A DNA stretch of 57,626 nt from Campylobacterales bacterium. GTDB taxonomy: Bacteria > Campylobacterota > Campylobacteria > Campylobacterales > Campylobacteraceae. How positions within the stretch are numbered: position 1 is the stretch's first letter; every line of letters begins with the position of its first letter. The DNA lies in contig JACUTV010000007.1 in NCBI GenBank assembly GCA_014859645.1, positions 1-57,626 on the forward strand, read 5' to 3'. The position numbers were made by a program, and so were the translations under genes. Of this stretch, positions 1 through 56,942 are shown piece after piece. The notes beneath the pieces were generated by a model. The model was not told the origin of the DNA. It saw only the letters and a list, made by a program, of their open reading frames with translations, and searched no databases.

Positions 1-465
1 CAACTCTCCCAAGCGGACTTTAAAGCGCGGGAAAAAGCCCTAGCCCTAGCCCTTCAAATCGCAGGGAGAAGCGGGAGAAAAGGGGTAGGAGAGGTCATCA
101 TCCAAACCATGAATCCTGAGTTTTTCCACGCCTATATGGACGATTTTGAGCGGTTTTTAAAAGAAGAAAAACCCCACCGCGAAGGCCTTTATCCGCCTTT
201 TAAACGGTTGCTTCGTTTACTTGTTTCTCACGCCAATGAGCTTACATGTAAAGAAGTCGTGGAAGAAGTACTAGGTAAACTTACGGCGTACAAAGAGCGC
301 GTAGAAGTGGTGGGACACGGCCCCGCGGACATTGGAAAAATCGCGGGAAAATACCGCTACCACGTACTACTGCGCTCAGATTCCCCGCGCGCTTTGGTGC
401 AAGCGGGCCTTACATGTAAAGGACGGCTTGTGGAAGTCGACATGGACCCCGTGTCGTTTTCCTGA
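1..465 (+). CDS. priA: Primosomal protein N' (PriA), C-terminal part
   Basis: This is the 3' end of a gene that enters from the left edge; the frame is open from base 1. PriA is the 3'-5' DNA helicase that reloads the replisome at stalled forks. The visible 154 residues include the helicase segment AGRSGRKGVGEVIIQT (about residues 21-36), which matches helicase motif VI of PriA, followed by the C-terminal domain (YPPFKRLLRL, GPADIGKIAGKYRYHVLLRS). An internal ATG at 109 is only a residue of the longer protein and not a start. Two TTACATGTAA palindromes lie in the gene (242, 410), both read as LTCK. The next gene, ispG, starts 125 bp downstream after a long inverted repeat. Identity is firm; the N-terminal helicase part is not in the window. 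Confidence 0.9.
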   Translation, partial: QLSQADFKAREKALALALQIAGRSGRKGVGEVIIQTMNPEFFHAYMDDFERFLKEEKPHREGLYPPFKRLLRLLVSHANELTCKEVVEEVLGKLTAYKERVEVVGHGPADIGKIAGKYRYHVLLRSDSPRALVQAGLTCKGRLVEVDMDPVSFS

Positions 466-500
466 CCCTAAGCAAAAGCGTGTTAAGATGTCTCAAAAAA

Positions 501-577
501 ACACGGTCGCATTAGCCCTATTCGCTCATTCTCGTTTTGTCATCCTGGCAAACCTCACAGGGCTAATGCGACCGTGT
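501..577. repeat. Stem-loop element 1: 19-bp perfect inverted repeat
   Basis: The left arm ACACGGTCGCATTAGCCCT (501-519) is perfectly complementary to the right arm at 559-577. The 39-nt loop contains a nested hairpin (TTTGTCA 536-542 with TGGCAAA 546-552). It fills most of the priA-ispG gap and ends 13 bp before the ispG start. No T-run follows the right arm, and the loop is long for an intrinsic terminator. The loop core (525-562) resembles the loop core of the element at 37261-37368, while the arms of the two do not match. Confidence 0.75.
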
Positions 578-590
578 AAAAGAGAAATTA

Positions 591-53645: not shown

Positions 53646-54362
53646 ATGCAAGGATTTGAACTGAAATGCAAGGCATATTTGAAGAAAGAGGTGGCGTTTG
53701 CCCAGAGTTTTGAAGCGCTTTCAAAGTATGTGAGTTTTAGCATGCACCAAGGAGAACTTGGGGAAAAACATGCACAAGAGGGCTACAAACACTATGTTTT
53801 TGGCGGCCTACTGCCCATCGAACCCGCAAAAGTCTACACCCAAGGAAACCTCTATACCTTCACAGTGCGCTCTTTGGACGAGGGGTTCATCGACAAGTTA
53901 AGTGTCGCTTTGAGGCAAAACACGGGCAATGAGTATTTTTTAGCCGTTGAAACCCACAAAAAGAGGCTCACACCCTTTTTCATCAGCGAACTCTACAGTG
54001 CCACGCCTGTCATCGTCTCGGTGGGCAATGGCAAATACTGGACACTCAACGAAAGCGGCGACATCGTCCAACTCCAACGCCAACTCCACGACAACCTAGA
54101 GAAAAAATACCAAAGCTTCTACGGCGAACCTTTACATGTAAAGGACAATTTCATCCAACTCATCGAACTCAAAAACAACGTCCCCCAAAATATCGCCATC
54201 ACCAAAACAGGCAAACCCATCCGCTTTTTCGGCAATAAATTCCGCATCGTGCCCAACGAAGACGAAGGAAGCCAAAAGCTAGCCTTCGTGGCGTTGATGT
54301 GCGGGCTGGGAGAGAAGAATAGTTATGGGGGCGGGTTTATGCTTGCGGGAGGGATGCGATGA
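53646..54362 (+). CDS. cas6: CRISPR pre-crRNA endonuclease Cas6 (type I-B)
   Basis: A 238-residue RAMP protein with the C-terminal Gly-rich loop [13 protein letters not shown], the hallmark of Cas6. It cuts the CRISPR precursor RNA and may stay bound to the crRNA hairpin. ATG 53646 follows CAGGAG; a GTG two codons upstream is also in frame. The stop overlaps the cas8b ATG by 4 bp. Its composition (about 44% GC) is like the genome and clearly above the next gene. TTACATGTAA at 54132 reads LHV. Confidence 0.9.
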
Positions 54363-56035
54363 TTTATGACATTGTGGATGTTTTCAGAAAAGAGTACGAA
54401 GCAAAAGGCGATAAGCTTATTTTGGATAGTTATCAACTTAAAGATGGGCTATATATCAAAATAAATAATGATGAAAGTATTGAGTATTTTATAAAATCAA
54501 GCCGCAAGGTAAAAGTGGAAGGCAAATCTATTACCGAGCATGATTTTAAAGATACATCGAGAATAAGCCAGCCAAAAATCTATGAATGGCTCAAAGTGAG
54601 AGATTATTACAGTAATGTCATCGATACCTCAAAATCCTATGATGCTCCCAAGAAGACTATTCACAATAACAATTATTTAACGCTTTTTATGAAAATAGAA
54701 AGCTTTTTAGAAGTTGAATTTTCTCATCTTAGAGCAAAGCTTTTCAAAAAAGTTTTAAGCTTTAAAGAGTTTGATTCAAAAAATGAGAAAAAAATTCTTG
54801 AAAGTTTTTGTTATTACATACAACCTTTAAGTCGAAAAAAAGACATCGTAAAAAAAATGAAGCGACTTGAGTGCTTTTTGCCTCAAATTAAGGAGTTTGC
54901 AAAAAGTTATAATCCAAAAGAGTACATAAGAATCTACTTTGAAAAAAGTGAAGAAATATACAAGAGCGAGAGTGCTGTCTACTTCGCCCTAAAAATTTAC
55001 AATGATAATAAATATTCTATAGAGATAGATAAAAAAGTTTTTGGGCTATCTAACTACAATATGGGTCTCAATAGCAAAAAACCATTTTTAGAACAAAAAA
55101 CACGCAAGCTATCAACTCCTTTTATGATTTCGCCTGAAATGGCCTTGGAAGTCAAATTGTTTTTTGATTGGCTTGCCTTGCAACCATATAAGACCGATTT
55201 GTTAGAAAAAATGCTTGTCAACAAATTCTCAGATAATGGGAAGGCAATCATTAACGATTTTGACTATTTGCCTGTCAAGATAGAAGAGTTGGACGATGAA
55301 ATAGTGGTGAAAAATCATCTTCATATTAAGGATAAAGAAGATGCAAGATTAACAGAACTTTGGCAGCTTGAAACTATGGTTGATGAAGTTTTTTATAGTA
55401 GGCAACTAAAAAGCAACTATTTTCGAGATGATTTAAAGGTTTCTGATTTTGTTTCCAAGAAGCTTCAACAGCTTATATTTGAGACAAAATACGCCATGGT
55501 AAATTACTTTAAAAAATACGATGAAAAAGAGTTTTATCAAGTCATTAAAAAATATGGAACTGATTTTGTCATTGAACATTTAAGGCAAAATAGAGAATAT
55601 AGGGCAAAAGAGAGTTTAAATTTAAAATTTTCATTACTACAACATAAAGGAGAAGTTGTCATGGATATTTCGGGAATACAAAAAAAGGTAATTGCCAAAC
55701 TTGAAACGTCAGATTATAGTGATTTGAGTAGTGAAGAGTTTTTCTATCTTTGTGGGCAAGTGGCAAAATATTTACTCACAAAAAGTAAATCAGGTAAAAA
55801 AGATGCTGATATGCTAGAACCTTTTTTGAGAGCAAAGTCAGTTAAAAAATTAAAAGATGAAATCAAATTTACATTTTTTAAATACAAACATGAAATTGGA
55901 CTCAATCAAACAAAGTTTAACAATGCGCTTGCGCTCATAACGGCTTATGAAAAAGATGAAATATTTAATGGGGATAGTTTTTTAGTTGGAGTTTTATCTC
56001 AAAATTTATTTTACATGAAAAAAGAGGAGAATTAA
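54359..56035 (+). CDS. cas8b: Type I-B CRISPR large subunit Cas8b
   Basis: A 558-residue Cas8b (TM1802/Csh1-like) large subunit of Cascade, expected to recognise the PAM. The sequence is very rich in Lys, Glu and aromatic residues and about 30% GC, with no strong hallmark motif; identity rests on place between cas6 and cas7, size, and pattern ([22 protein letters not shown]). The last ~124 residues form a separate helical domain with its own internal start (see 55661). Confidence 0.86.
55661..56035 (+). CDS. Internal in-frame small subunit (Cas11b) within cas8b
   Basis: Inside cas8b, codon 435 is ATG at 55661 and is preceded by AAAGGAG with eight bases between, a far better ribosome site than most real starts here. 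It would give a 124-residue helical protein ([20 protein letters not shown] ...). Independent translation of the small subunit Cas11 from within cas8 is established for type I-B, I-C and I-D systems, and size and place fit. No separate cas11 gene is seen. Confidence 0.65.
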
Positions 56036-56036
56036 G

Positions 56037-56942
56037 ATGACAAGAGTTTACGGAGTAATCGGAATCAAAGCAAAAATGGCAAATTGGAATGCGGATTTTA
56101 CAGGAAGACCAAAATCAACCAGTAATGGTGATATTTTTGGAAGCGATAAAGCACTTAAGTATCCTATGAAAAAAATGTGGGAGAATGAGGGTAAAAAAGT
56201 ACTTTTTATTAAGAGTTGGAAAGAGGAAAAGGGTTCAATTGTTCCAAATCAATTAGGAGAAAGATATAAGCTTCTTTTTAGTGATATTGATAAAAAAACT
56301 GAAACTAAAGAGGTGATGAACAACCTTTTTAAGGCAGTAGACGTTAAGAATTTTGGTGCAACATTTGCAGTAGAAGGGCAAAATATTTCTATCACTGGTG
56401 CTGTGCAATTTGGGCAAGGATTTAACAAATTTGACGATACCAATATTGAAATTCAGGACATATTATCCCCTTTTACAGACTCTAAAGCAGAAGAAAAAGG
56501 CAAAGAAGCAAAACAATCAACACTTGGTACAAAAATCACCGTTGATGAAGCACATTATTTTTATGGTTTCTCTATTAACCCTAAAAATTATGACGAATAC
56601 AAAACCCTTTTAGGTGCAGAGTTTCAAGGCTATACTGAAGCAGATTATGCAGAGTTTAAAAAAGTTGCATTGGTCAGTGCTACCGCCTACAGCACTAACT
56701 CAAAATTTGGATGCGAAAATGAGTTCGCTTTGTTTCTTACATGTAAAGACGATAAATGTTACTTGCCAGACTTGAGTGACTATGTGAAGTTTGATAGTCA
56801 AAAAAGAGAGATTGACCTTGGCGAGCTTGAAAAACTTATCGAAGGCAAGTTTGCAAGTGTTGAAGTTTATTTTAATCCTTTCAAACTTAGCTTGAAAACA
56901 TCTTTGGATAAATTTAATATTTTTACCCAAGAGAAATTGTAA
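56037..56942 (+). CDS. cas7: Type I-B CRISPR backbone subunit Cas7
   Basis: A 301-residue Cas7 (Csh2/Cst2-like) backbone protein that lines the crRNA. The start [25 protein letters not shown] and the block [14 protein letters not shown] are typical. ATG 56037 follows GAGGAG, one base after the cas8b stop. About 33% GC. TTACATGTAA at 56737 (FLTCK). Confidence 0.9.

Follow-up and report, generated by a model that had tools for sequence, protein, structure and literature searches.

Uptake sequences of Neisseriaceae and Pasteurellaceae number about 1,000 or more and lie both within genes and between them; they have dialects, are scarcer on mobile DNA and presumably reach high copy number through preferential import. 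The function of HIP1, a highly iterated palindrome of cyanobacteria, has been open for decades. As far as Elhai's account describes it, HIP1 (GCGATCGC) reaches about one copy per kb and is linked to solitary methylases, its one-base deviations fall mostly on the first or last base, relatives use alternate palindromes, some genomes carry the motif and no methylase, and a mismatch-repair ratchet at methylated sites is proposed as its cause (Elhai 2015, PMC4390886). Campylobacter jejuni, as described in four reports, imports DNA on condition that CtsM has methylated it at RAATTY, this mark acting at the first uptake step (PMC10046745, PMC8437040, PMC8468864, PMC8627207). Here we analysed a stretch of 57,626 nucleotides (the window) from a Campylobacterales bacterium of the Campylobacteraceae (contig JACUTV010000007.1, assembly GCA_014859645.1). 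It holds 25 exact copies of a 10-bp palindrome, TTACATGTAA, against 0.04 expected from dinucleotide shuffles. Our recount agrees with an initial annotation of this DNA in number and positions.

The motif is a highly iterated palindrome like HIP1, yet it is not HIP1. Both are iterated genome-wide, altered mostly at the outer bases, replaced by alternates in relatives and present in some genomes where no methylase was found, as far as that account covers HIP1; a solitary methylase is linked to HIP1 and is the candidate enzyme here. Two features of such palindromes, an excess over Markov expectation and a concentration of deviations on the outermost base, were found here. The parallel with HIP1 drawn in the initial annotation is apt, and it covers both a link to a methylase and the near-misses at the outer bases described for HIP1 (PMC4390886). 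Unlike HIP1, the present motif is an AT-rich 10-mer with preferences over 14–16 bp, occurs in another phylum and differs in sequence from GCGATCGC; its candidate enzyme is an adenine methylase (D12 class), whereas cytosine and GATC enzymes are described for HIP1; and a signature of decay could be measured in genomes without the enzyme. In the open-licence literature we found no report of such a motif in bacteria, of methylation at its core TACATGTA, or of an iterated palindrome in Campylobacterota or Sulfurospirillum. The case thus offers an independent iterated palindrome in a second phylum, where natural losses of the candidate enzyme have left a readable signature of decay.

Genome-wide iteration and force on the DNA

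The excess is not confined to the window, a point on which the initial annotation had made its reading depend. The complete assembly (G000; 2,780,768 bases in 249 contigs) holds 1,084 copies, one per 2.6 kb, against a single copy of the reversed pattern. In 212 kb of this genome, 96 copies were found where a second-order Markov model expected 0.27, and 133 copies of the core TACATGTA where it expected 2.8. ACATGT was counted 159 times (61 expected), and CATG, with 1,145 occurrences for 1,196 expected, was at expectation, so the short core is in excess only within the long palindrome. When a congener (G151) was added, giving 410 kb in all, 181 sites were found against 0.48 expected. In this combined sample, near-misses altered at the outermost base (position 1/10) were enriched 26-fold (54 against 2.0 expected), whereas those altered at the four inner symmetric positions stood at 0.4–1.0 of expectation.

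Base preferences continue beyond the palindrome, with A or G at +1, G or C (mostly G) at +2 and any base except T at +3, giving a full consensus of about SY-TTACATGTAA-RS. They are seen at 136 sites inside open reading frames (ORFs) and also at 45 sites outside them (R at +1 in 87%, S at +2 in 93%), and are therefore no codon effect. Past about +4 the composition is close to background, so the copies are no fragments of a longer repeat. Within the window, YTTACATGTAAR is present on both flanks of 21 of the 25 copies and 13 copies are strict 12-bp palindromes (nine CTTACATGTAAG, four TTTACATGTAAA), fewer than the 23 extended copies initially reported.

ORFs of at least 100 aa make up 91.5% of the bases in the combined sample, yet 52 of its 181 sites lie outside them (45 under a second ORF rule), and the density of sites per base is about four times higher outside ORFs than inside. 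The earlier statement that copies lie mainly inside genes therefore holds as a count, 22 of the 25 window copies being within ORFs of at least 90 aa, and fails per base. The two reading frames said to be used because they avoid the internal TAA were recovered: inside ORFs the palindrome is read as LHV at 78 sites and as T-C at 47, the third phase (YM*) being found at four sites, all at the gene's own TAA stop. Amino-acid use predicts 24.5 LHV tripeptides, and 101 were counted; 91 of these are coded as TTACATGTA, where codon use predicts 1.0, and 10 are coded otherwise. In three motif-poor relatives pooled, LHV occurred 3 times for 6.4 expected. The LHV excess and its coding point to a force on the DNA so strong that it imposes residues on proteins and quadruples a single tripeptide across the proteome. 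That selection or copying acts on the DNA itself, as initially supposed, is borne out by the genome-wide Markov excess, by its survival of the amino-acid control and by the extended consensus at non-coding sites.

The sites are spaced nearly at random (dispersion in 5-kb bins of 1.01, against 0.98 simulated, on contig C1 of G151), by the test of spacing that the initial annotation had proposed. Even spacing was rejected on this ground; a few short contigs that seemed more even were given no weight. Gaps shorter than 100 bp were in some excess (14 of 150, against 6.5 expected). Five of the twelve gaps below 60 bp lie within one ORF and seven do not, and by these short-gap counts terminator-like hairpin pairs are a side feature at most.

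Distribution in related genomes

We counted the palindrome in 153 genomes of the window's own family and among 398 genomes of the order. In the own family, the congener G151 holds 1,059 copies and G152 holds 804, genus g10 and G134 reach up to 287, and genera g2–g7 (133 genomes) have 0–4. Across the order, family f20 is rich in the motif: each of the 24 genomes of genus g31 holds 49–1,496 copies, and genera g57, g65 and g82 hold 22–733. Genus g31 was identified as Sulfurospirillum from its member G187, which has a plasmid contig 100% identical to the S. diekertiae plasmid NZ_CP059996.1 (taxonomy Sulfurospirillaceae). Family f16 is patchy, with eight genomes at 31–367 copies and the others at 0–19; in the other families, 11 copies are the most that any genome holds. 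Sixteen further genomes, mostly of Campylobacterota, have 2–14 copies. The excess in relatives, on which the initial annotation had equally relied, is thus present in several genera. The G+C content of the genomes ranges from 0.30 to 0.47, so composition is no cause of the motif. An outer-base dialect, CTACATGTAG, was found in genus g39 (small samples), most members of which are still enriched in TACATGTA, and in G141.

Plasmids appear sparser in sites. In the 140 kb covered of two Sulfurospirillum plasmids, 16 copies were counted, against about 0.44 per kb in the S. diekertiae genome G187. Four of these are on a 40-kb plasmid; in the first 100 kb of the other, of 201 kb, two lie in the first 50 kb and ten in the next, a stretch which carries cobalamin and dehalogenase genes. 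On plasmid pSulSP (13096–44895), copies sit among genes for cobalamin synthesis, regulators and reductive dehalogenases, with few in the flanking mobile genes, as if a chromosomal block had been transferred onto the plasmid.

Some local arrays were also noted. On contig C76 of G136 (about 17296–17812), nine copies of TTACATGTAA follow one another at intervals of 63–64 bp in a CRISPR array. The motif is thus part of the CRISPR repeat, in a genome where it is otherwise decaying; by eye, this repeat resembles a Cas12a repeat. Three copies lie 66 bp apart on contig C47 of G138. A 70-kb sample of G144 shows strong avoidance of CATG (51 against 185 expected), possibly through a restriction system directed at CATG; CGATATCG, possibly a further iterated palindrome, is enriched there (8 against 1.8) and in G140 (10 against 1.9).

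A candidate methylase

Two families of adenine methylases, PF01555 and PF02086, were searched in 22 genomes. PF01555 (N6_N4 methylase) had no match in the window's own genome and was ruled out as the common enzyme. PF02086 (D12) gave one full-length gene in that genome, outside the window, on contig C99 (1348–2316, minus strand; 322 aa, 104.8 bits). A second D12 methylase gene, on contig C153 (about 4569–4895), is a broken fragment with one internal stop (45 bits). Homologues of the full-length protein were then sought in 49 and in 35 more genomes, 26 distinct genomes of the first set lying outside the second. In a tree of 66 proteins, this protein belongs to a clan set apart from the others (support 86/91), which we call type A; its D12 motifs appear intact by eye. 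Identity to the G000 protein is 90% in G151, 59% in G152 and 38–40% in genus g10. Any other homologue was named type B; five B homologues (G306, G424, G314, G334 and G468) stand outside the 23-row B clan of the tree. The assignment of G509 to type A rests not on the tree but on identity to L300 (two pieces, 75% and 83%).

The location of type A is conserved across Sulfurospirillum. Its neighbours are ordinary genes and belong to transporter, short-chain dehydrogenase, response regulator, allophanate hydrolase C-domain, transglutaminase-like, sensor kinase, tRNA methyltransferase and TsaD families. No nuclease family was matched among ten neighbour proteins from five type A loci, three of them in a context of housekeeping type, matched or unmatched, so type A is solitary; since the site is moreover in excess rather than avoided, a type II restriction-modification site was ruled out. 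A tRNA (uracil-5-)-methyltransferase gene adjoins type A in G380 (and in G454, by clustering) and lies within about 1.2 kb of it in the window's own genome, a shared neighbour which suggests an old common location of type A across two families. No viral contig matched the type A protein patterns. The S. diekertiae plasmid carries a second D12 methylase gene (1692–2732) beside an IS21 element, in a strain with a chromosomal type A gene.

Like CtsM, type A is a solitary adenine methylase of the same order, with a palindromic candidate target and comEC present in the genome, and it presumably belongs to the same or a sister family. Among the matches listed, most genomes of the window's family have one distant D12 homologue of about 360–430 aa, in the same length class as a RAATTY methylase of C. 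coli, whose gene is given as 1,095 nt. These widespread homologues of the 369-aa class are presumably CtsM. Type A is 24–27% identical to them and separated by a long branch (3.46), and the tree places it in a separate clan, so that type A is predicted not to be CtsM itself. RAATTY also differs from TTACATGTAA in being short and common: C. jejuni has 27,280 strand sites of it. We know of no report of RAATTY as an iterated motif.

Methylase presence and decay of the sites

In 70 genomes we counted perfect sites, TACATGTA and all one-mismatch sites, and expressed decay as the excess of inner near-misses per core site. The inner background was set to 0.8 of the one-mismatch count of the reversed pattern, and double outer changes were estimated on the assumption of independence; where a genome has few sites, as in G214 and G183, its value is noise. 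Type A was found in 24 of the 70 genomes. All 24 are motif-rich, with TACATGTA at 17–61 times the reversed control and an inner excess of −0.01 to 0.14 per core site.

All 24 Sulfurospirillum genomes of the sample were included. None of the 15 with type A is decaying (0.01–0.07), and six of the nine without it are (0.26–1.27; Fisher p = 6e-4, kinship ignored). Four of the six have no full homologue: G241 (49 copies, decay 1.27), which shows no more than two weak partial matches, G276 (238, 0.68), G469 (168, 0.65) and G388 (412, 0.39). The other two, G306 (411, 0.61) and G424 (605, 0.26), encode a divergent homologue adjoining the same sensor-kinase gene that adjoins type A elsewhere, as if the specificity had been swapped. 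The rarity of inner near-misses and the abundance of outer ones indicate that inner changes are removed and outer ones tolerated, and this removal stops in the six decaying genomes. A methylase site had been among the roles suggested at the outset, and it now has comparative support. Outside Sulfurospirillum, the link between type A and the motif is looser.

Individual sites are also conserved. At syntenic type A methylase loci, where conservation was measured, 11 of 11 sites are identical in five genome pairs with no genome reused, against about 2.75 expected from sequence identity. When all nine type A pairs are taken, which overlap in genomes, 20 of 21 sites are identical and the lone exception is an outer-base change. 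In the decaying pair G306/G424, the sole site in the methylase locus differs at an inner base. The stretches compared between G000 and G151 shared too little sequence for such a test.

Possible function of the sites

Our preferred reading, held tentatively and at somewhat under an even chance, is that TTACATGTAA is the target of the solitary type A enzyme and a methylated mark of self DNA, probably read in natural transformation. Type A, a D12-class adenine-N6 methyltransferase, quite probably methylates TTACATGTAA, with TACATGTA as the core. The methylated sites would mark the chromosome as self, and a second protein would read the mark, most likely at the DNA-uptake step of natural transformation; if type A does methylate the site, the analogy with CtsM makes uptake an evenly balanced guess for the reader. 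DNA bearing sites would be imported and recombined preferentially, so that sites pile up by drive even at a cost in amino acids, and the same drive would restore mutated sites. In genomes that lose the methylase or exchange its specificity, the drive would stop and the sites decay. Preferential import of marked DNA could also bring a longer and rarer site to high copy number and leave plasmids sparser. The consensus exceeds the usual requirement of a methylase, outside genes as well, and so points to a reader protein. The motif shares with the uptake sequences of Neisseriaceae and Pasteurellaceae its copy number, its position in and between genes, its dialects and, apparently, its scarcity on mobile DNA; unlike them it is palindromic and tied to a methylase, and uptake is here hypothetical. 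The comEC-like gene of the window is evidence for, not proof of, a capacity for natural transformation. The proposal in its full extent, namely a methylation mark read in uptake and spread by drive to about 1,000 palindromes of 14–16 bp per genome in at least two Campylobacterales families, altering proteins on the way, is possible and put forward with more reserve. If true, it would bring HIP1, the uptake sequences and CtsM together as one kind of system and so bear on the HIP1 puzzle, with marks that erode on loss of the enzyme or swap of its specificity. Sulfurospirillum has cultivated strains, so that upkeep of the sites by the methylase and their reading in uptake are directly testable.

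Several observations weigh against this reading. Because the consensus goes beyond the usual need of a type II methylase, a hypothetical reader must be postulated, and the putative competence of the organism rests on a single gene. Near-random spacing is a further point, since uptake signals may be evenly spaced. Three Sulfurospirillum genomes show no decay and no homologue was found in them: G336 (934 copies, 99% complete), G459 (840, 86% complete) and G494 (608, 77% complete). Outside this genus, G253, G284, G409 and G372 have an undecayed core and no full homologue was found in them either. Either the same mark is made there by another enzyme, or causes other than the methylase contribute. 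Some genomes with an enriched core carry B homologues (G286, G141, G334 and others), which leaves no clean on/off switch between A and B. Support for the type A clan is middling (86/91), and the clan received its name when the counts had already been seen.

Methylation by type A could make the site a mutational sink, in which a bias of repair or replication preserves or creates sites with no reader and no function. This epiphenomenon, of which Elhai's mismatch-repair ratchet is the main mechanistic form, appears unlikely to us, even though the link to a methylase and the near-misses at the outer base fit the pattern and model as set out for HIP1 in that account (PMC4390886). A ratchet at methylated sites would not by itself be expected to produce the R, S and V preferences past the palindrome, nor does it agree with an undecayed motif in some genomes without a homologue. 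The model also requires mismatch repair of the MutS/MutL type, which to our knowledge is missing in Campylobacterota.

The graded, symmetric consensus of 14–16 bp in coding and non-coding DNA, together with one site per about 2.6 kb genome-wide, near-random spacing and the conservation of individual sites, would suit a nucleoid, segregation or replication protein selected for chromosome organisation, whose binding the methylase modulates or protects. We give this a low probability. Abundant chromosome signals such as Chi and KOPS are asymmetric, and matS and parS sites are few and regional; no such bias was seen in the assembly, whose 249 contigs allow no replichore test; and a binding site alone does not account for decay upon methylase loss.

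Somewhat less probable still is an unmethylated uptake sequence of the Neisseria and Pasteurellaceae kind, with a receptor reading the bare 10–14 bp and a methylase that merely travels along. It would explain the drive-like accumulation, the outer-base dialects (CTACATGTAG in the small samples of g39 and in G141), the sparser plasmids, the presence of comEC and the genomes without methylase. It does not predict the absence of type A from six decaying Sulfurospirillum genomes, and classical uptake sequences are non-palindromic. A repair or recombination site, also proposed initially, is unlikely on general grounds. Chance, composition, mobile repeats and protein constraint retain practically no probability, being excluded by the reversed control (1,084 copies against 1), the Markov excess, the amino-acid control and flanks near background past +4.

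Copies and neighbouring genes in the window

Positions of all window copies are collected in Table 1. No Pfam family was matched at 1e-5 by the ORFs around the copies at 17687, 25712, 30686, 32946 and 47583, so some of these ORFs may be non-genes.

Table 1. Copies of the palindrome in the 57,626-nucleotide window and the ORFs that hold them.
Feature	Position	Strand	Location	Remark
TTACATGTAA copy 1	242..251		priA 3' end, ORF 109-465	PriA_C 49.8 bits
TTACATGTAA copy 2	410..419		priA ORF 109-465	
TTACATGTAA copy 3	3148..3157		comEC ORF 3070-4332	
TTACATGTAA copy 4	3325..3334		comEC ORF 3070-4332	
TTACATGTAA copy 5	3436..3445		comEC ORF 3070-4332	
TTACATGTAA copy 6	6458..6467		FAD-linked oxidase ORF 5097-6476(-)	close to ORF start
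TTACATGTAA copy 7	10674..10683		carbon-nitrogen hydrolase ORF 10534-11436(-)	
TTACATGTAA copy 8	11907..11916		O-methyltransferase ORF 11461-12528(-)	
TTACATGTAA copy 9	17687..17696		ORF 17111-17740(+)	no Pfam match
TTACATGTAA copy 10	25712..25721		ORF 24977-25774(+)	no Pfam match
TTACATGTAA copy 11	26535..26544		BtrH_N/DUF4872 ORF 25771-26757(-)	
TTACATGTAA copy 12	30686..30695		ORF 30543-30896(-)	no Pfam match
TTACATGTAA copy 13	32438..32447		ketoacyl synthase ORF 31537-32637(-)	
TTACATGTAA copy 14	32946..32955		ORF 32637-33011(+), TTG start	no Pfam match
TTACATGTAA copy 15	36577..36586		PAD_porph ORF 36258-37349(-)	
TTACATGTAA copy 16	38649..38658		histidine kinase ORF 37394-39007(+)	
TTACATGTAA copy 17	38672..38681		histidine kinase ORF 37394-39007(+)	23 bp from copy 16
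TTACATGTAA copy 18	41759..41768		outside ORFs	3' of sodium:solute symporter ORF
TTACATGTAA copy 19	41773..41782		outside ORFs	14 bp from copy 18
TTACATGTAA copy 20	44401..44410		outside ORFs	between ORFs ending 43820 and 46085(-)
TTACATGTAA copy 21	47583..47592		ORF 46563-48551(+)	no Pfam match
TTACATGTAA copy 22	50128..50137		ORF 48809-50791(-)	weak Glyco_hydro_17 match
TTACATGTAA copy 23	51045..51054		NMT1/PAS/GGDEF ORF 50898-53564(+)	
TTACATGTAA copy 24	54132..54141		cas6 ORF 53640-54362(+)	
TTACATGTAA copy 25	56737..56746		cas7 ORF 56037-56942(+)	
comEC-like competence channel gene	3070..4332	+		PF03772 Competence, 89 bits; three TTACATGTAA copies inside

The first part of the window (1–4332) is a row of genes made up of the end of priA, GcpE, a dnaB-like helicase and comEC, of which priA and comEC together hold five of the 25 copies.

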